Assembly (NCBI GenBank): GCA_947470805.1
Contig: CANIVU010000062.1
Coordinates: 1-49,268, forward strand
Direction: 5' to 3'
DNA from: Acidobacteriota bacterium
GTDB taxonomy: Bacteria > Acidobacteriota > Terriglobia > Bryobacterales > Bryobacteraceae
Length of the DNA stretch: 49,268 bases
This document shows, in pieces, positions 23,605 through 49,229 of the stretch. Every line of letters begins with the position of its first letter. Position 1 is the first letter of the stretch. A model generated the notes under the pieces. That model worked only from the letters and a program-made list of their open reading frames with translations. It had not been told where the DNA came from and made no database searches. A program made the translations under genes and the position numbers.

Positions 23605-25287
23605 TTAGGTATTGGTGACCATGTAATAGGCGACCGAGCCGCCCATCACGACCACACCGAGGACGATGGCTGTTGACCAGCCGAGGAGACCAACCCGCTT
23701 ACGGCGCTTCAAAACAATGTCCTCTTCAATCAAGGGCACGCAGCCAAGGACGGTCAGTTGCGTATACGCCCGAACGTCTTTCAGGTTCTTGAGCGTCGTG
23801 TCTTTCATCTCACGCACACCGACGGCGAGAAGGCCAAGCAGGAAACCGATCATCGTACCGGCGCCAATAATAAAGGCGCGTTTCGGTTCCGCCGGGGTCA
23901 CCGGGAGCGACGCCTGATCGATCAGATCGAGCGTTTCACCCTGTTTGTTGCGGATAATGGCGGTCCCGCGGGCGGAGTCATCCTGCTTAAATTTCAGGGA
24001 ATTGTAGGTTAACTTGGCTTGTTCGTAGTCGCGATTCAGCTGCGCTTGGGCCTGGCTTGAAAGAGGAGCAGCGGTAATCCGGCTCTGATAGCCTTTTGCC
24101 TGCTGACCGGCACGCACAATCTCTCCGTTAAGGTCCTGCAATTCCATGTTCTTGGCATTGATCATGGACTCGGCCTGCTTGATGTTGGCGTCGAGGGCTT
24201 GCATCTCACGGGTGACAACAACCCGGCGGGGCGCCTTGGTCTTGTCGTTCTGCGCGGCTTTCCGGGACTCCTCCGCCTGCGCTTCCTTTTCGTGACGAAC
24301 CAGCTCATCCCGCTGCCGGCGAAGCATGGAAAGGTTCGCTTCGACACGGCGCACGTCGGGGTGAGTGCTGGTGTACATCTCGCGGAACTGAACGAGCGAT
24401 TGCTCGGCAGCCGCCACTTCCCGTTCTTTGCGAAGCAGCTCTTCATTCTTCGCCATAGCGCGAGCCGGGTCCGCCGGGATGATGGACGCCACCTCCGTCG
24501 CCTTTACCAGCTGCTCACGCAGGATCCGGAGATTGGACTCCATCAGCAGCTTTTCCTGGTTTACGCGGCTGATCGAAGCATTCATTTGGGAAATTCGCTG
24601 ATCGAGCGAGTTCATCGCCGCGAAGTTGACGTTTTGATCCTCCGGCAACGTCCCAGTGTGTTCGATCCGGAACGCGGCCAATTTGGATTCAATTTCGTCC
24701 AACTTCTGCTTCGCCTTTTCCACTTCCTGCGTAAAGAAATCGGTTGTCGTCTGGCTCTGCGTGATCGTTTCCCGCTCGTTTTCGTTGATCAACCGGCTTA
24801 CGATGTCGCCGGTGACTTTCTGTGCCAGATAGCGATTCTCATAGTGAAACGAGACCGGGAAAGCGCCGACACGACTGGCGCCCTGCTGCAAATTCACCAC
24901 GCCAATTTTGATGTCCCGGTTCCGCATCTGCTCTACGACGTCCTGCATCGGCAGCCGGCGCCGCTCGCGCGGATATAGATCGTGCGTTTGGATAATGTTG
25001 GTTAACGTGCTGGTCGAAAGCACACCCTGAGCGATCGCGCTAATGCGCTCCGACAGGACTTGGTTCAGATTCGCCTGGACCAACCGGTCCGGCACTTGGG
25101 AGGAGGTAACGCGAATCAACGCGGAGGAAACGTAGGTGTCGGGCCAGAGAAACGCAACAACCGTCGAGACAACTACCCCAGCCCATAGAGGACCAAAAAT
25201 CCAGGTCCGGTGACGCCGAGTGATATCGACAAAATCCTCAAAATCCGGCGCCCGACGAGTGACTTCAAAACTATCTGTTGCTTGCAT
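23605..25287 (-). CDS. Wzz/GNVR-type polysaccharide co-polymerase
   Basis: 560 residues. A cytoplasmic N-terminus, a first membrane helix (about 33-52, WAGVVVSTVVAFLWPDTYVS), a long periplasmic coiled coil (QEVEKAKQKLDEIESKLAAF and onward), the C-terminal GNVR-like segment LPVTPAEPKRAFIIGAGTMI leading into a second helix, and a further C-terminal helix (WSTAIVLGVVVMGGSVAYY) after a basic stretch. It is the activator/scaffold of the BY-kinase downstream and sets export chain length. ATG 25287 has GAGGAG 11 bases upstream; a TTG nine bases earlier would be too close to it. No glycosyltransferases or Wzx/Wzy lie nearby. Confidence 0.87.
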   Translation of the reverse strand: MQATDSFEVTRRAPDFEDFVDITRRHRTWIFGPLWAGVVVSTVVAFLWPDTYVSSALIRVTSSQVPDRLVQANLNQVLSERISAIAQGVLSTSTLTNIIQTHDLYPRERRRLPMQDVVEQMRNRDIKIGVVNLQQGASRVGAFPVSFHYENRYLAQKVTGDIVSRLINENERETITQSQTTTDFFTQEVEKAKQKLDEIESKLAAFRIEHTGTLPEDQNVNFAAMNSLDQRISQMNASISRVNQEKLLMESNLRILREQLVKATEVASIIPADPARAMAKNEELLRKEREVAAAEQSLVQFREMYTSTHPDVRRVEANLSMLRRQRDELVRHEKEAQAEESRKAAQNDKTKAPRRVVVTREMQALDANIKQAESMINAKNMELQDLNGEIVRAGQQAKGYQSRITAAPLSSQAQAQLNRDYEQAKLTYNSLKFKQDDSARGTAIIRNKQGETLDLIDQASLPVTPAEPKRAFIIGAGTMIGFLLGLLAVGVREMKDTTLKNLKDVRAYTQLTVLGCVPLIEEDIVLKRRKRVGLLGWSTAIVLGVVVMGGSVAYYMVTNT

Positions 25288-41468: not shown

Positions 41469-42179
41469 TTAGAGCATGGCGCGGAGTTCGGCGAGGTCGA
41501 GCCGGCCGGTGTAGATGGCCATGCCGAGGGCGGTGTGGATGTTGATCGACCGGAGGGCGCGGACATCGTCGAGCGTGGTGACGCCGCCGGCGGCGGTGAG
41601 GTCGTGGGTGGGAGAGAGGGCGGCACGGAGGCGTGTGAACCAATCGATGTCGGTGCCCTGCATCATCCCTTCCTTGTCGACGTAGGTGCAGAGGAAGCCG
41701 CGGCAGTAGGGTTCGAGCGAACCGATGATCTCTTCTGCGGTGAAGTTCGTCGCTTCCTGCCAGCCCTTGATGACGATCTTGCCGTCTTTGGAATCGAGGG
41801 CGAGGAGGATCTTTTCGGGTCCGATTTTGGCGGCGAGGTCTTCGAGGAAGGGTTTGTTGGGTCCTTCCTTCGTGAAGGCGCTGGTGCCGACGATGACTTT
41901 GTAGGCGCCCTGGTCGAGCAGCGTCTGGGCGCGTTCGACCGTACGCACACCGCCGCCGACGCGGCAGCGGGCGTGGGCACAGAGGGTTTCGACGATGGCA
42001 TCGTTGGCACCGCGGCCGAGGGCGGCGTCGAGGTCGATGACCTGGATCTCCGGGAAGCCGGCGAACTTGTCGAGCATGACGAGCGGGGCGTCGCCTTCGA
42101 GCGCTTTTTCTTTGCCTTGGACAAGCTGGACGACTTTGCCGTCCATGAGATCGATGCAGGGGAGGATTAAGCTGGCCAT
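41469..42179 (-). CDS. hisA: phosphoribosyl-ProFAR isomerase
   Basis: 236 residues of the HisA TIM barrel. ILPCIDLMDGKVVQLVQGKE carries the catalytic Asp after the first strand, GRGANDAIVETLC and CRVGGGVRTVERAQTLLDQG follow, then AAGGVTTLDDVRALR and the closing IYTGRLDLAELRAML. It isomerises ProFAR to PRFAR (step 4 of histidine synthesis). The HisA of Acidobacteriota-type operons usually lacks the doubled phosphate-binding signature at lower divergence; here it is intact. Five bases separate it from hisF. A partial copy of its 3' end lies at 39999-40046. Confidence 0.93.
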   Translation of the reverse strand: MASLILPCIDLMDGKVVQLVQGKEKALEGDAPLVMLDKFAGFPEIQVIDLDAALGRGANDAIVETLCAHARCRVGGGVRTVERAQTLLDQGAYKVIVGTSAFTKEGPNKPFLEDLAAKIGPEKILLALDSKDGKIVIKGWQEATNFTAEEIIGSLEPYCRGFLCTYVDKEGMMQGTDIDWFTRLRAALSPTHDLTAAGGVTTLDDVRALRSINIHTALGMAIYTGRLDLAELRAML

Positions 42180-42184
42180 GAGAT

Positions 42185-42952
42185 TTAGCGGCGTCTCCGC
42201 ACGACGATGCCGTGCTTATCGAGGAATTCCTTGAGGTCGTCGACGGTGTAGGTTCCGAAGTGGAAGATGCTGGCGGCGAGGGCGGCGTCGGCTTCTCCTT
42301 CGGTCAGCACTTTGAGAAAGTCTTCCGGCTTCCCTGCCCCGCCGGAGGCGATGACGGGGATGCGGGTAGCGCGGGAGACGGCGGCGGTGAGTTCGCAATC
42401 GAACCCGGTCTGGACGCCGTCGGTATCCATGGACGTGAGCAGGATTTCGCCGGCGCCGAGTTGCATGCCGCGGGCGGCCCATTCGACGGCGTCGATGCCT
42501 TCGTCGTGGCGGCCGCCTTTGGTGAAGACGTTCCAGCCGCCACCGCCCGGGCGGCGACGAGCGTCGATGGCGAGCACGACGGCTTGGGCGCCGAATTCGT
42601 TGGACAGTTCGGTGATCAGTTCGGGGCGGTGGACGGCGGCGGTGTTGACGCTGACTTTGTCGGCGCCGGCCATGAGGATCTTGCGGGCGTCGATGATGCT
42701 GCGGATACCGCCACCGACGGTGAGCGGGATGAAGACTTTGCGGGCGGTGCGGGCGACGACGTCGACCATGGTTTTGCGCTCGTCGGAAGACGCGGTGATG
42801 TCGAGGAAGACCAGTTCGTCGGCGCCTTGTTCGTTGTAGCGTTCGGCGAGTTCGACGGGGTCACCGGCGTCGCGGAGATTGACGAAGTTGACGCCTTTGA
42901 CGACGCGGCCGGCGGTGACGTCGAGACACGGGATGATGCGTTTGGCGAGCAT
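42185..42952 (-). CDS. hisF: imidazole glycerol phosphate synthase, cyclase subunit
   Basis: 255 residues: [21 protein letters not shown] with the catalytic Asp, [28 protein letters not shown] with the second catalytic Asp, [20 protein letters not shown] and [13 protein letters not shown]. HisF forms the imidazole ring of IGP and releases AICAR, using ammonia from HisH. ATG 42952 begins at MLAKRII, the conserved N-terminus, and follows the hisH stop by 19 bases. It is five bases upstream of hisA. Confidence 0.94.
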
Positions 42953-42971
42953 GGAATCAAACGTCCAGGCT

Positions 42972-43571
42972 TTAGAGCTCGATGAAATTTTTGACAATTT
43001 GCAACCCCAGGGGACCGGACTTTTCAGGATGGAATTGGACGCCGAAGACGTTTTCGTGTTCGAGGACGGCGGTAAAGGGTTCGGCGTACTGGCAGGTGGC
43101 CGCGGCCGAGTGGACGACGGGGACGTAGTAGCTGTTGGCGAAGTAGACGTAGGGGCGATCGCCGACGCCGCGGAGAAGGCGGGAGCCGGCCTTGACGTCG
43201 AGCTCGTTCCAGCCCATGTGGGGGACGCGGGCGTCTTCGGGGAAGCGCTTCACTTTGCCTTCGAAGATGCCGAGGCCTTTGACGTCGGGCGCCTCTTCGC
43301 TCTCTTCAAACAGCGCCTGCAGGCCGAGGCAGATACCGAGGAACGGAGTGCCGCCGGAGATGCAGGTGAGCAGTGTGGAGCGGACGCGCATGGCGTCGAG
43401 CGAGCGGAGGAGTTGGCCGAAGTGGCCGACGCCGGGGAGGATGATTTTGTCGGCGCTGGTGAGGCCGGCGGCGTCATCGACAAGCGTGAATTTGGCGCCG
43501 ATGGCTTCGAGCGTGTTCATGACGCTGCGAAGATTGCCGGCGCCGTAATCGAAGACGGCGATACCGCTCAT
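42972..43571 (-). CDS. hisH: imidazole glycerol phosphate synthase, glutamine amidotransferase subunit
   Basis: 199 residues. [20 protein letters not shown] at the start, [19 protein letters not shown] with the nucleophile Cys, and [20 protein letters not shown] with the His and Glu of the triad. It makes ammonia from glutamine for HisF. The start overlaps hisB by one base (TAATG at 43571). Confidence 0.94.
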
Positions 43572-44170
43572 TAGTTTGTTCCTTCGAGGAGGCCCTTGGT
43601 GGAGGGCAGTTGATCCTTGAGACGCGCGTCGGTGGAGCAGGCGAATTTCATGGCGCGCGCGAAGCCTTTGAAGATGCTTTCGAGCTTGTGGTGATTGGAC
43701 CGGCCGTACATGGTGAGCACGTGGACGTTGGCACCGGCGTGGACGGCGAAGCCGTCGAAGAAGTCGTGGACGAGTTCCGATTGCAGGTCGCCGACGAGGC
43801 GGGTTTTCACTTTGTCGTTATAGACGAGCGCGGGGCGGCCGCCGAGATCGATGGCGGTGACGGAGAGCGTTTCGTCCATGGGCATGACGAAGTAGCCGGC
43901 GCGGTTGATGCCTTTGCGATCGCCGAGGGCCTTGGCGAACAATTGGCCGAGGACGATGCCGACGTCTTCGACGGTGTGGTGCTGGTCGACGTCGAGGTCA
44001 CCGGTGGCCTGGAGTTCAAGATCGAACCCGCCATGCTTGGTGAACAGTTCGAGCATGTGATCGAGGAATCGAATGCCGGTCGATATCGTGTACTTGCCCT
44101 TGCCTTCAATTTTCAGCTTGCCGCGGATCTGGGTTTCCTTGGTGATCCGTTCTACGGTCGAGGTTCTCAT
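43571..44170 (-). CDS. hisB: imidazoleglycerol-phosphate dehydratase
   Basis: 199 residues, monofunctional HisB (no fused phosphatase domain). [20 protein letters not shown] opens; [18 protein letters not shown] and [17 protein letters not shown] carry the metal-binding His; [20 protein letters not shown] and [17 protein letters not shown] follow. It converts IGP to imidazole acetol phosphate with manganese. ATGA overlap with the HAD gene upstream. Confidence 0.93.
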
Positions 44171-44823
44171 GCGGGTAAGATTCGCTCCAGTTCGTTGATG
44201 CTTTCGATGATGGCGATGGCGCCTTCTGCTTCCATCAGGGCGACGGTGCGGGCGTGGCCTTCGTCGCGGCGATTGCCGACACCGATGAAGGGGACGCCTG
44301 CGGCGCGGGCGGCGCGGGCGTCGTCAACGGTGTCGCCGATATAACAACTTGCGTTGCCGATCTTCAGGATACCTTCCGGATCGGGCTTGCCTTTGGTGAC
44401 GTCGTCATCACCAATGACTGGATTGAAAATTAGATGGGTGGCGAAGCGGTCGAGGGTCATTTGCGCTTCGTCGCGGAGGCGGCCGGTGACGACGGAGAAA
44501 TCGTATTTTTGATTCAGGCGTTTCAGTGTGTCAGTGGTGTCGATCCAGACTTCGCGCTGCATCAGACCGTCGTTGCCGTTGGGGCCGAAGAAGAGCTTCT
44601 GGAAGGCGTCGATGACCGTTTGATAGTCGACTTCCATGCCGAGATCGGCGAGGATTTTCTGGGACAGGAGCCAGTCGTTATTCCAGCCGCCCTGGTTTTT
44701 GTAGTCCTGAATGGCGGCGCGTTCGATGGTTTTGCCGGAGAAATGTTTGACGGTTTGGACGATGGACTCGCGGTAGCTTTCGGTCACCTCGACCAGCACG
44801 CCATCCATATCGAACGCGATCAT
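44167..44823 (-). CDS. HAD-superfamily phosphatase, candidate histidinol-phosphatase
   Basis: 218 residues from ATG 44823 (inside the ATGA overlap with the hisC stop). HAD motif I is [10 protein letters not shown] with the two catalytic Asp, motif II the Thr in [10 protein letters not shown], motif III the Lys in GKPDP, and motif IV is [14 protein letters not shown]. The cluster has no other histidinol-phosphatase (no HisB N-domain, PHP or inositol-monophosphatase type), and this gene sits between hisC and hisB in an overlapping operon. It is therefore a good candidate for the L-histidinol-phosphate to L-histidinol step; this is inference from position. An upstream in-frame start six codons earlier is also possible. 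Confidence 0.75.
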
Positions 44824-45905
44824 TTTGCGGGGCGTTTCCAAACGGCCTCCAGTTCGGTTAAGAATTTGCGCATCTGTTCGCGAGTGCCCACCGTGACTCG
44901 AACGCAGCCGGGGAGTTCGTAGCTGCGGTCGCGAACGAGGATGCCTTTTTCGCGGAGCGTGTCGCGGATTTCGACGGCGCGATCGCCGGCGGCGAAGAGG
45001 ACGAAGTTGCCCTGGCTTTTGATGTAGGGGATGCCGAGTTTTTCGAAACCGACGTAGAGCAGTTCGCGGGCGGCGAGGACTTCGCCGACGTATTCGGAGA
45101 TGTATTCCGTATCACGAATGGCGGCGCGGGCAGCGAGCACGGCGAGCGAGTTGACGCTGTAGGGCGACTGGGCCTTCTTCATCCAGGCGACGTTTTCCGC
45201 CTTCGAGAACATGCAACCGACGCGCATGGCGGCCATGCCGTAGACCTTGCTGAAGGTACGGCTGACGAAGAGGTTGGGGTACTCGTTGATGAGCTTAAGC
45301 GCGGTGACGCCGCTGAACTCGTAGTAGGCTTCGTCGATGAGCACGGCGGCGTGGGGCGCCTTCTTCAAAATGCGGGTGATGCCGTCGAGATCGATGCCGG
45401 AGCCGGTGGGGTTGTTGGGATTCGAAATCAGGATGAGCCGGGTTTCCGGTTGGATGGCGGCGAGCAGTTCCTGGAGCGGGAAGGCCAGCGTGCCGGGACG
45501 GTATTCGAGCTCGCGGATGGAGGCGCCGGCCACTTCGCAATAGAAGCGGTACATGGCGTAGGAGGGCTTGAGGATGATGACGTCGTCGCCGTCGTCGATG
45601 TAGGTATTGACGAGGACCTGGATGGCTTCATCCGTGCCGTTGGTGATGGCGAATTCGTTGGTTTCCACCTTGAAGAATTCGGCCAGTTCTTCAACGGCCT
45701 TGCCGTATTCGGGGTAGACGGCGAGATCGTTTTCGACGAGGTGTTCGGCGATGAACTGGGTGACCTTTTCGCTGCAACCGAGGGTGTTTTCGTTGAAGTC
45801 CAGACGCAGGCGATCCATGCGGCCGCCGGTGGGCGGGTGGTAAGGCGCCATGCGCTCGACGGCGGGGCGGGGGCGGAGTGAGGGGCCTTTGCTACCGCTT
45901 GCCAC
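44820..45905 (-). CDS. hisC: histidinol-phosphate aminotransferase
   Basis: 361 residues, PLP-dependent fold type I. RLDFNENTLGCSEKVTQFIA opens, ITNGTDEAIQVLVNT and ILISNPNNPTGSG carry the cofactor and Asn, LIDEAYYEF the Asp/Tyr, and SRTFSKVYGMAAMRVGCMF contains the Schiff-base Lys. It converts imidazole acetol phosphate to histidinol phosphate. GTG 45905 overlaps the end of hisD by 14 bases, which is longer than the other overlaps here; the first conserved residues come about 20 codons in, so a later start near residue 20 (MAPYHPP) or 30 (MDRLRLDF) is possible. Confidence 0.92.
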   Translation of the reverse strand: MASGSKGPSLRPRPAVERMAPYHPPTGGRMDRLRLDFNENTLGCSEKVTQFIAEHLVENDLAVYPEYGKAVEELAEFFKVETNEFAITNGTDEAIQVLVNTYIDDGDDVIILKPSYAMYRFYCEVAGASIRELEYRPGTLAFPLQELLAAIQPETRLILISNPNNPTGSGIDLDGITRILKKAPHAAVLIDEAYYEFSGVTALKLINEYPNLFVSRTFSKVYGMAAMRVGCMFSKAENVAWMKKAQSPYSVNSLAVLAARAAIRDTEYISEYVGEVLAARELLYVGFEKLGIPYIKSQGNFVLFAAGDRAVEIRDTLREKGILVRDRSYELPGCVRVTVGTREQMRKFLTELEAVWKRPAK

Positions 45906-47139
45906 GGCGGACCTCCACGCTGCGCGCGTGCGCTTCGAGGCCCTCGGCGCGGGCGAGGGTGGTGATGGCCGGTTCCAATTTGGCGAGGGCGGAGGCGTTG
46001 AGCTCCTGCGTCGAGATGATCTTCACGTAATCCATGGCGGAGAGGCCGCCGCGGAGTTTGGCCGCGCCGCTGGTGGGCAGGACGTGGTTGGGCCCGCTGG
46101 CGTAGTCGCCGGCGGCTTCGGGGCTGTAGGGCCCGATGAAGATGCTGCCCGCGTGGCGGATGCCGGGGACGAGTTTGGCGCTTGGGATGGAGAGGTGCTC
46201 CGGTGCGAAGCGGTTGGAGATTTCGACGGCTTCATCGAGCGAGCGGACGAGGATGATGGCCGAGTTCTTATCGATCGCTTTGCGGGCCGTGGGGGCGGTG
46301 GAGAGCGTGGCGAGTTGCCGCTCAATTTCGCTTTGGACGGCGAGGGCGAGTTGCTTGGACGTGGTGAGCAGCACGGCGCTCGCGTCGGTGTCGTGTTCGG
46401 CCTGGGCGAGCATGTCGGCGGCGATCCAGGCGGGGTTGCCTTCTTCGGCGATCATGAGGATCTCCGTGGGGCCGGCGATGAAATCGATGCCCACTTCGCC
46501 CGCGAGGAGTTTCTTGGCGGCGGCGACGTAGATGTTGCCGGGGCCGACGATGCGGTCCGCTTGCGGGATGGTTTTGGTGCCGTAGGCGAAGGCGGCGATG
46601 GCCTGGGCGCCACCGATCTGGAAGACGTGGGGCGTCTTCAGCAGCGACGCGGTGCCGATGATTTCGGGGACCAGTTTCGGCGTTGTGACGCAGACGTTGG
46701 GCACGCCGGCGACGAGCGCGGGGATGACGGTCATCAGCACCGTGGACGGTAGCGGGTAGCGTCCGGCGGGGATGTAGGCGGCCACGGTGTCGAGCGGGCG
46801 GACGACCTGGCCGACCTTGAGGCCGGGGGCGATGGTGGCCGATTTAGCTACGGGCAACTGGAGCTTGGCGTAGGCGCGGATGTTGGCCGAGGCGGTTTTG
46901 ACGGCGGCGCGGAAGTCCTTGGAGAGGGCGGCTTCGGCGGCCTTCATTTCGGCTTCGGTGACGCGGAGGGAGGGGCGATCGAAGTTGTCGAATTTCTTCG
47001 CGTATTCGATGACGGCCTTGTCCCCGCGTTTGCGGACGGCTTCCAAAATTGGCGCGACCACCAGTTCCGCTTCGGTGAAGCGGGCGGCTTTACGGGCCAG
47101 AATGCGGCCCACCTGCGTGTGTTCAACGATGCGTATCAT
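45892..47139 (-). CDS. hisD: histidinol dehydrogenase
   Basis: 415 residues with family motifs: AAYIPAGRYPLPSTVLM, VPNVCVTTPK, IGGAQAIAAFAYGT, IDFIAGPTEILMIAEEG, AQAEHDTDASAVLLT (zinc-site His) and NRFAPEHLSI, then YASGPNHVLPTSGAAK. Catalyses the last two oxidations from histidinol to histidine with NAD. Starts MIRIVEHT six bases after hisG and overlaps hisC at its end. Confidence 0.94.
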   Translation of the reverse strand: MIRIVEHTQVGRILARKAARFTEAELVVAPILEAVRKRGDKAVIEYAKKFDNFDRPSLRVTEAEMKAAEAALSKDFRAAVKTASANIRAYAKLQLPVAKSATIAPGLKVGQVVRPLDTVAAYIPAGRYPLPSTVLMTVIPALVAGVPNVCVTTPKLVPEIIGTASLLKTPHVFQIGGAQAIAAFAYGTKTIPQADRIVGPGNIYVAAAKKLLAGEVGIDFIAGPTEILMIAEEGNPAWIAADMLAQAEHDTDASAVLLTTSKQLALAVQSEIERQLATLSTAPTARKAIDKNSAIILVRSLDEAVEISNRFAPEHLSIPSAKLVPGIRHAGSIFIGPYSPEAAGDYASGPNHVLPTSGAAKLRGGLSAMDYVKIISTQELNASALAKLEPAITTLARAEGLEAHARSVEVRRGKR

Positions 47140-47145
47140 GCGTGG

Positions 47146-48021
47146 CTACTCGATGATCTTGTTGAGCGGGTATTCGACGATGCCGCTGGCGCCGGCCTGC
47201 TTCAGGCGGGGGATGATGGTGCGCACGGTGGTTTCGTCGAGGATGGTGTTGACGGCTACCCACTTGTCGTCGGCGAGCGGCGAGATGGTGGGGTTCTTGA
47301 GGGCCGGTAGGATGGCGATGACGGCGTCGAGATTCTTGCGTTCGACGTTGAGAATGAGGCCGACTTTGCCGAGTGCGGCGATGGCACCTTCGAGCAGCAT
47401 CTTGATGTCGGCCAGTTTCTGCGACTTCCAAGAATCGGCGGCGGCGGCTTTGTTGGCGACCAACTGCGTGTTCGAGGTGAAGAGCTCTTCGACGATGCGG
47501 AGCTTGTTGGCGCGGAGGGAGGAGCCGGTTTCGGTGACTTCGACGATGGCGTCGGCCAGATCGGGCGGCTTGACTTCGGTGGCGCCCCAGCTGAATTCGA
47601 CCTTGGCCTTGACGCCGTTCTTGCGGAGGTACTTCTTGGTCGCTTCGACGAGTTCGGTGGCGATGATTTTGCCTTCGAGATCCTTCACCGTTTTGACGGG
47701 CGAGGACTCGGGCACGGCGAGCACCCAGCGCACCTTGCCGAAGCTCTGTTTGGAGTAGACGAGGTCGGCGATTTTGACAACCTTGGCACCGGACTCCTGG
47801 ATCCAGTCGAAGCCGGTGAGGCCGGCGTCGAGCACGCCGTCTTCCACGTAGCGCGCCATTTCCTGAGCGCGGATGAGCATACATTCGATTTCGGGATCAT
47901 CGATGACCGGGAAGTAAGAGCGGCTGGAGGATTGGATATTGAAGCCGGCCTTCTTGAACAGTTCGATGGTGGCGTTTTCGAGAGAGCCTTTGGGGATACC
48001 GAGTTTGAGCTTGTTCGACAT
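47146..48021 (-). CDS. hisG: ATP phosphoribosyltransferase, long form
   Basis: 291 residues: [20 protein letters not shown] opens, [12 protein letters not shown] and [12 protein letters not shown] follow, [15 protein letters not shown] is the PRPP-binding signature, and a C-terminal regulatory HisG_C domain (about 210-291; [38 protein letters not shown]) binds histidine for feedback inhibition. The long form does not need HisZ. It catalyses the first committed step. ATG 48021 is eight bases after the hisI stop. Confidence 0.94.
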
Positions 48022-48029
48022 GGAGTTTC

Positions 48030-48404
48030 CTATTTGTTGTAGACGGCGCCGGGGTCGTAGGTTTGGGTTTCGGTGACTTTCCATTCGCCCTCGTCGAGGG
48101 TGCGGAAGAAGCAGCTTTCGTAGCCTTCGTGGCAGACACCGGGGCCGACGGCTTCGACCTGGACGAGGACGGCATCTTTGTCACAATCCGTTTGGATGGA
48201 TTTGACCAACAACTTATGGCCGCTCGATTCGCCCTTGAGCCAGAGCTTCTTGCGGGAGCGGCTCCAGAAAATGGCGTAACCGCGCTCGACGGTGAGGCGG
48301 AACGACTCTTCGTTCATGTAGCCGACCATCAGCACGCGGCCGGTTTTGTGGTCCTGGATCACCGCGGTGATGAGGCCATCCGTTTTTTGAAAATCGAGGT
48401 CCAT
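48030..48404 (-). CDS. hisI: phosphoribosyl-AMP cyclohydrolase
   Basis: 124 residues, monofunctional His[39 protein letters not shown] and the three zinc Cys in QTDCDKD and [13 protein letters not shown] are typical. It opens the ring of PR-AMP in step 3. There is no HisE (PRA-PH) domain fused and no hisE in the operon, so that step must be encoded elsewhere. First structural gene of the operon, 24 bases after the T-rich tail of the attenuator terminator. Confidence 0.93.
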
Positions 48405-48427
48405 AAGAGTGGTTTGAGTGGGTTGTA

Positions 48428-48459
48428 GAAAGAAAAAGCCCGCCGAGGAAACGGCGGGC
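48428..48459 (-). terminator. intrinsic terminator of the his attenuator
   Basis: On the minus strand GCCCGCCG (48459-48452) pairs with CGGCGGGC (48445-48438) around the loop TTTCCT, then TTTTTCTTTC follows. It is a perfect 8-bp GC stem with a T tail, 38 bases downstream of the His-rich leader stop and 24 bases before hisI. Confidence 0.88.
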
Positions 48460-48497
48460 CAAATTACGGTCTCATGCTGCGGTACTTCAGCGCAATT

Positions 48498-48566
48498 TCA
48501 ACCAATGGCCCAGCGAATCGCCGTGTGGCGATGGTGGTGATGAGGGCCATGGGAGTGCAGCAGCAT
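48498..48566 (-). CDS. hisL: histidine operon leader peptide
   Basis: A 22-codon frame from ATG 48566 to TGA 48498 whose centre reads HSHGPHHHHRH: seven His among 22 residues, with four in a row. It lies between an extended -10 promoter and an intrinsic terminator, directly upstream of hisI on the same strand. Such peptides sense charged tRNA-His: a ribosome stalled on the His codons lets an antiterminator form. Possible alternative pairings: GGGCCA in the last codons (48506-48511) with TGGCCC of the terminator arm (48456-48461), and ATGCTGC at the peptide start with GCAGCAT (48474-48480). The mRNA start would fall just before the ATG, so the leader may itself lack an untranslated region. Confidence 0.85.
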   Translation of the reverse strand: MLLHSHGPHHHHRHTAIRWAIG

Positions 48567-48576
48567 CGGAAACCTA

Positions 48577-48585
48577 AGTATAGCA
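48577..48585 (-). promoter_or_regulatory. extended -10 promoter of the his operon
   Basis: On the minus strand TGCTATACT: TGN plus TATACT. The hexamer ends ten bases before the leader peptide ATG. The -35 (TGTCAA at 17-base spacing) is weak, as is common with extended -10 promoters. Confidence 0.6.
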
Positions 48586-48599
48586 AATGGACCCAGGAA

Positions 48600-48629
48600 T
48601 TGACACTTCCTTTGCAACGCCGATAGACT
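48600..48629 (+). promoter_or_regulatory. promoter of the DUF507 gene
   Basis: TTGACA at 48600-48605, 18-base spacer, TAGACT at 48624-48629. The -10 ends nine bases before ATG 48639, implying a leaderless transcript. The region overlaps back-to-back with the his promoter, so the two may compete. Confidence 0.6.
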
Positions 48630-48638
48630 CAGAACCGA

Positions 48639-49229
48639 ATGCTGCTGCAGAAGGAATTTGTCGCCTACCTGGCCGGACACGTTGTGACGGGTGTTTCGGC
48701 GGGCTTAGTGGAGATCATCAATCCGGCTTCGGCCAAGGAAACGGTGAACCAAGTCATCCTGGAAGAACTGTCGGTGGAAGATCAGTTGAACGACGAAGTT
48801 CGCGAGATCCTGGCACAGTACAACGAGTACATGCGCCGGGAGCAAGTGAGCTTTTCCGACATGTTCCGCAAGGTGAAGAATCAGCTGATCGCGGAGCGGA
48901 AGATTGTGCGCGCGTCGGGACGGGACACGGGCGACGGCATGAAGCTGTCGCGCGATAAGATCACCGACATATCGCACAAGATTCTGACGGCGATGCGGAA
49001 GGGGCGCGACTTCCGTTTGAAGAAACCGGAAAACGACATCCGGCTGAACATCGTTAAAACGTTCACCGATACGTTGCTGGCCGAGGATAAGATCGACAAG
49101 GCCGCGCGGCAGAAGATTCAATCGCAGAAGCGGGAGATTCTGGAAGGCAGCGAAGAGTACGATTTGCTGCATCGCCGTTACTATGCCGAGGAGATGAAGA
49201 AGCTCGGCATTGATTTGACGCGGGCGTAA
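48639..49229 (+). CDS. DUF507 family protein
   Basis: 196 residues, helical and charged. It contains LEELSVEDQLNDEVREIL, MRREQVSFSDMFRKVKNQL, and ISHKILTAMRKGRDFRLKKP followed by IRLNIVKTFTDTLLAEDKID and the acidic/basic tail SEEYDLLHRRYYAEEMKKL, the DUF507 pattern. Its function is unknown. The divergent his operon and the kinase after it are no clear guide to function. No Shine-Dalgarno sequence is seen; the ATG lies nine bases after a -10 hexamer. One base separates its stop from the next ATG. Confidence 0.85.
   Translation: MLLQKEFVAYLAGHVVTGVSAGLVEIINPASAKETVNQVILEELSVEDQLNDEVREILAQYNEYMRREQVSFSDMFRKVKNQLIAERKIVRASGRDTGDGMKLSRDKITDISHKILTAMRKGRDFRLKKPENDIRLNIVKTFTDTLLAEDKIDKAARQKIQSQKREILEGSEEYDLLHRRYYAEEMKKLGIDLTRA

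Follow-up and report, generated by a model that had tools for sequence, protein, structure and literature searches.

Attenuators of the histidine (his) operon have been described in Proteobacteria and predicted for 17 Firmicutes genomes, according to the available part of PMC9413887. The hisL leader of E. coli and Salmonella (RF00514) consists of a His-rich leader peptide, a terminator and an alternative antiterminator placed before the his operon. In the same source, the Firmicutes candidates (B. cereus group, Peptostreptococcaceae, Lutispora, Erysipelotrichales) have these three parts as well; they belong to another phylum than the locus studied here and are likewise comparative predictions (PMC9413887). 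Here we describe a corresponding region upstream of hisI in a stretch of 49,268 nucleotides (nt) from a Bryobacteraceae genome of the phylum Acidobacteriota (contig CANIVU010000062.1, assembly GCA_947470805.1; 'the window' denotes this whole stretch). We read the region as a ribosome-mediated transcription attenuator of the his operon, with a probability of roughly 0.93.

The initial annotation likened the locus to the his attenuation architecture of enterobacteria. The attenuation logic appears to be the same, but the enterobacterial his leader is a longer multi-hairpin chain (as in E. coli), whereas the Acidobacteriota leader has three segments, closer to the trpL type, and is probably leaderless. 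It also differs from the gammaproteobacterial case in that hisI, not hisG, comes first. The initial annotation knew of no such element in Acidobacteriota-like genomes, and the literature matches listed contain no his attenuator from this phylum; one 2010 survey of bacterial attenuators may include Acidobacteria, and absence from print is not established. The word Acidobacteria does not occur in the main text of PMC9413887, as far as the available part of it goes. A 2005 survey, in its accessible portion, gives no conserved RNA structures before Actinobacteria histidine operons (PMC1262725), and a 2016 paper, again in the portion available, names Acidobacteria for leader genes near structural genes, not for histidine (PMC4833913). 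The putative Acidobacteriota his attenuator is a new, widespread instance of a known mechanism.

The 22-codon minus-strand frame with seven His codons that had been reported before hisI is present (Table 1). Relatives were compared by gathering hisI loci from the family of the window, from 80 named relatives (mostly labelled Bryobacterales, Bryobacteraceae, Solibacter, Terriglobia or Acidobacteria), from its class and from the phylum Acidobacteriota; the out-of-family loci were chosen by hand from match lists, and the fractions below are no unbiased census. The 194 loci reduce to 165 distinct by sequence and to 164 after dropping L106, which has less than 200 nt of upstream sequence; 150 of these have hisG within 700 nt downstream (the window's own is L002) and 14 do not. 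A leader was called where a closed open reading frame (ORF) of at most 40 amino acids, within 350 nt upstream, has at least four His in 10 codons. Such a leader precedes 142 of the 150 distinct hisI-hisG loci, the window's own counted. Among 3000 dinucleotide shuffles it arose in 17, and the opposite strand gave it in 0 of 150 loci. The excess over shuffles (142/150) is unique to His among the 20 amino acids; next come Ala, Arg and Ser (33, 31 and 20 of 150, with shuffled means of 19.7, 39.0 and 15.7). Conservation of the His codons in related leaders, which the initial annotation had named beforehand as a point on which its proposal could fail, is thus observed at this same frequency.

By origin, the leader is found in 47/48 loci from verified genomes of the window family, 34/35 from other families of the class, 14/15 from other parts of the phylum and 47/52 known only from named records, whose family is unchecked. 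L061 and L105 are among the last; L061 is identical to a locus from another family. The verified family and the named-record loci, with L105 set apart, form what we call the nearest set (leader in 93/99). L105 lies on a metagenome-assembled genome (MAG) contig labelled Chthoniobacterales, and its hisI, hisG and hisD are 59-79% identical to those of the window, reflecting either transfer or a wrongly binned contig.

Both His codons occur in the leaders (CAC 360, CAT 472), and Gln, whose codons also follow the CAN pattern, is seldom encoded (CAA 18, CAG 46), so that selection seems to act on His itself rather than on a nucleotide repeat. As a separate observation, the 142 leaders prefer CAT, and the first 110 hisI codons of the 150 loci favour CAC (276 CAC versus 97 CAT).

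Between leader and hisI the predicted GC hairpin with its T run was found where the initial annotation had put it. The hairpin is GGCCCGCCG-TTTCCT-CGGCGGGCT, with nine pairs, eight of them G-C. The order on the minus strand is extended -10 element, 10 nt, leader ORF, 37 nt, hairpin, 32 nt, hisI. Within 48380-48700 there are two terminator-like sites, nested in one hairpin, against a shuffle mean of 0.4. A T-run hairpin whose free energy (dG) is no weaker than -12 precedes hisI in 138 of the 142 leader loci (shuffles were compared for the window region only); the four failing are L080, L125, L156 and L166. The search for a His-rich peptide together with a terminator in relatives, which had been proposed as a check, thus gave both parts in most loci. 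Because the neighbour, a DUF507 gene, is divergent, the hairpin does not serve to end a gene lying upstream. One could suppose that leader and hairpin work through hisI translation or through Rho-dependent termination instead of intrinsic termination; a strong GC hairpin and T run that finish upstream of hisI in those 138 loci, in the window by the 32 nt given above, argue against this, and we give it very little credence.

Three RNA segments can form the helices 1:2, 2:3 and 3:4, each mutually exclusive with its neighbours. In other lineages the letters change and the logic is kept, for example AGCCUGC with GCAGGCU in L008. The two alternative pairings that had been suggested as a possible antiterminator do exist and are on average stronger than shuffled or swapped partners. 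For 2:3, the RNAduplex means over 138 loci are -19.5 for cognate, -15.1 for shuffled and -16.8 for swapped segments; for 1:2 they are -25.9, -20.8 and -21.9 (0 of 2000 permutations in each case). After thinning to less than 80, 70 and 62% hisI identity (n = 65, 25 and 10), 0 of 5000 permutations reached the cognate mean for either pairing at each level, and the cognate exceeds the mean swapped partner in 52/65, 20/25 and 6/10 loci (2:3) and in 44/65, 20/25 and 8/10 loci (1:2). On average, the putative leader pairings coevolve. This bears on a different view of the ORF, namely that it encodes a functional His-rich small protein, for example a metal-binding one, with the hairpin as its ordinary terminator. 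His-rich peptides can bind metals, and the ORF is conserved with a terminator behind it. By eye, however, the part of the peptide after the His codons varies among groups (endings WAIG, GQAGL, RRAVF, RAHA); the RNA of that part keeps, on average, its complementarity with segment 1 and the terminator arm, and the ORF goes with the hisI-first operon and is rare before other hisG loci (1/23). A small protein is therefore highly unlikely, and attenuation remains the reading that we follow.

Under attenuation, RNA polymerase would start at the leader AUG or a few bases before it, and a ribosome would load on that AUG, which is probably leaderless. Where charged tRNA-His is plentiful, this ribosome would reach the stop codon and cover segment 2, 3:4 would form and transcription would end before hisI. 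With charged tRNA-His scarce, a ribosome stalled on the His codons would cover segment 1 and leave segment 2 free to pair with newly made segment 3; the terminator would then come too late and the operon would be transcribed. If no ribosome loads, 1:2 would form and termination would be the default. That histidine starvation leads to readthrough is what we infer from this arrangement. The predicted ribosome positions suit it in most loci: in 123/138 the segment 2 core falls within the last 24 nt before the stop codon, so that a terminating ribosome would cover segment 2, and its overlap with the terminator 5' arm is 4 nt or longer in 126/138. In 81/138 the core begins at least 12 nt past the last clustered His codon.

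Folding with and without a stalled ribosome, which had been named as a check, gave the expected switch in part. The window RNA was folded between the AUG and the terminator 5' arm, with ribosome masks that take in 18 nt before and 12 nt after the first A-site base, an assumed footprint. With the 5' arm only, the probability (P) of 1:2 is 0.83 and that of 2:3 is 0.11 in the absence of a ribosome; P(2:3) rises to 0.98 with the ribosome masked at His9, His12 or His14 and falls to 0.00 with the ribosome at the stop.

Several results weigh against this interpretation. Once the whole terminator is made, 3:4 wins at equilibrium in every state (P at least 0.99) and the switch is gone, so antitermination has to be kinetic, decided during RNA synthesis. 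In 57/138 loci the segment 2 core begins less than 12 nt after the last of the clustered His codons; a stall there would cover part of the core, and only a stall at an earlier His would free segment 2. Single loci are weaker evidence for coevolution than the averages: the cognate lies below 5% of its own shuffles in 54/138 (2:3) and 66/138 (1:2), exceeds the mean swapped partner in 101/138 and 105/138, and has a median rank among 138 of 30 and 32, respectively. Eight of the 150 loci fail the leader criterion. L104, L123 and L141 have three His codons each and were not counted; none was seen upstream of hisI in L061, L075 and L157. In L035, a close relative (hisI 89% identical), the His codons and the stretch up to the hairpin are gone, and the hairpin is retained with a poorer T run; either the switch seems to have been lost in nature or the assembly is at fault. 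In L076 the leader appears to be lost and a strong hairpin with a T run stands close behind the -10 element. L035, L061, L075 and L076 are records labelled MAG. The element is also tied mainly to the hisI-first operon and not general to Acidobacteriota histidine operons. Only three of the 14 hisI loci lacking hisG have a leader (L102, L109, L133), L136 (hisI then hisD) has no His-rich leader, and hisG loci outside the hisI-hisG order gave one candidate in 23 (L222) in 450 nt of scanned upstream sequence. This control covered 22 hand-picked genomes, 11 in which hisI is not followed by hisG and 11, from these or further families, that probably lack that order; 26 loci were fetched and 23 scanned, three being second pieces of one gene, and a leader lying behind an intervening gene would be missed.

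The probable leaderless start is the most distinctive trait of the Acidobacteriota his attenuator. The extended -10 element that had been noted ten bases before the leader ATG is there, and its spacing is conserved: with a -10 called at a score of at least 7 of 9, it lies 7-10 nt before the leader ATG in 87/93 nearest-set loci (43/47 verified family loci), compared with 3/93 hisI ATGs and 4/272 other ATGs in the same regions. The TG extension is found in 79 of the 92 loci having such a -10 in the 94-locus set that counts L105; in that set a Shine-Dalgarno 4-mer precedes 3/94 leaders versus 25/94 hisI starts. Transcription usually starts about 7 nt behind the -10, which would place the leader AUG about 0-4 nt from the 5' end. 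Judged from the -10 spacing and the scarcity of Shine-Dalgarno motifs, the leader mRNA of the nearest set is probably leaderless. The leader might instead belong to a longer transcript and have an ordinary ribosome site, in which case attenuation would still hold. An in-frame upstream ATG occurs in 17/93 nearest-set loci, and outside this set the -10 spacing is seen in only 18/48 leaders, with a Shine-Dalgarno 4-mer at 7/48 leaders versus 30/48 hisI starts. Set against the nearest-set spacing, its two ATG controls and the rarity of Shine-Dalgarno motifs at these leaders, a longer mRNA appears unlikely, if clearly worth considering. Transcription from downstream of the terminator, which the initial annotation had given as another point that could overturn it, finds no counterpart in the letters of 48380-48700: two promoter-like sites occur there, one per strand (shuffle mean 0.2), and the sole minus-strand site is upstream of both leader and terminator.

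Two described leaders resemble such a leaderless arrangement. The transcript of Sinorhizobium meliloti trpL begins at the leader ATG and adopts two mutually exclusive RNA structures (PMC7298713, available portion); it differs in responding to tryptophan and in belonging to Alphaproteobacteria, and the start site in our case is a prediction. For the ilvB leader of Corynebacterium diphtheriae the start site is at the leader start codon, making it leaderless, as stated in the available part of PMC5784534; this one concerns branched-chain amino acids, in Actinobacteria.

Rfam gave no match in the whole window at gathering scores and 10 matches, all below gathering scores, for 48350-48700 at E-values (E) up to 10. 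RF00514 (His_leader) is absent from these 10, and no T-box model matched in either search. All 10, including those to anti-hemB (E 0.0003, 26.3 bits versus a gathering score of 49.5) and to the tryptophan leader RF00513 (E 1.2, 15.9 bits versus 41), were taken as chance hits on a GC hairpin and its T run.

Table 1. Features of the his leader region and its surroundings in the window.
Feature	Position	Strand	Remarks
Weak -35-like hexamer GTGTCA	48601..48606	-	18 nt upstream of -10; from consensus scan only
-10 element TATACT, extended by TGC (48585-48583)	48577..48582	-	10 nt from leader ATG
Leader peptide ORF MLLHSHGPHHHHRHTAIRWAIG	48498..48566	-	22 sense codons and stop; seven His codons
Segment 1, AUGGCCC, codons 6-8	48544..48550	-	pairs with segment 2
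Segment 2, GGGCCAU, codons 19-21	48505..48511	-	pairs with segment 1 or 3
Segment 3, UGGCCC, overlapping terminator 5' arm	48456..48461	-	antiterminator with segment 2
Intrinsic terminator hairpin (3:4), then TTTTCTTT	48437..48460	-	predicted; dG -19.3
hisI, first operon gene	48404-48030	-	Pfam PRA-CH PF01502, E 6.8e-32
Remaining his operon, hisG to two PF00977 genes	41469..48021	-	Pfam matches
Divergent neighbour, DUF507 gene	48639-49229	+	PF04368

The operon behind the leader has nine genes, from 48404 down to 41469. It opens with hisI, hisG and hisD, followed by a hisC-like aminotransferase, a HAD-family gene, hisB, a hisH-like amidotransferase and the two PF00977 genes (hisF and hisA types); the names hisC, hisH, hisF and hisA rest on general Pfam family and operon position. 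The 8.7 Mb genome has a single hisI-family match. The plus-strand promoter-like site is at 48600-48629, so the two putative promoters share a short gap.

Other amino-acid operons of the genus were surveyed too. In the window genome, upstream of ilvB at 25068 (G000:C84, L200), an ORF ending TGIIPIVVVAIIGVTVTDPA is followed, by eye, by a GC hairpin and T run, which makes a second attenuator likely there. Similar frames stand before ilvB in L196, L199, L201, L202 and L203 of the same genus; nine ilvB loci were examined, six of them readable at the gene start. Among trpE-type loci of the genus (10 fetched, nine scanned), a scan for Trp pairs found none in 7/9; the scan is weak, since it covered as much as 1500 nt ahead of the domain match and did not run from a mapped gene start. 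In L211 and L217 the ORFs found stand hundreds of bases upstream and were judged unconvincing.

On balance we somewhat favour the view that the his leaders of Acidobacteriota form a widespread family of leaderless attenuators, probably an old one, and that ilvB of the genus surveyed above may be under a unit of the same sort. In such a family the -10 element, start codon and sensor would be fused in one compact unit that controls the whole his operon, with the ribosome loading at the extreme 5' end of the RNA while it is being made. For a phylum that has been little studied, histidine regulation becomes directly testable, and the fused promoter and start codon would provide a naturally occurring test case for the coupling of leaderless initiation with transcription.
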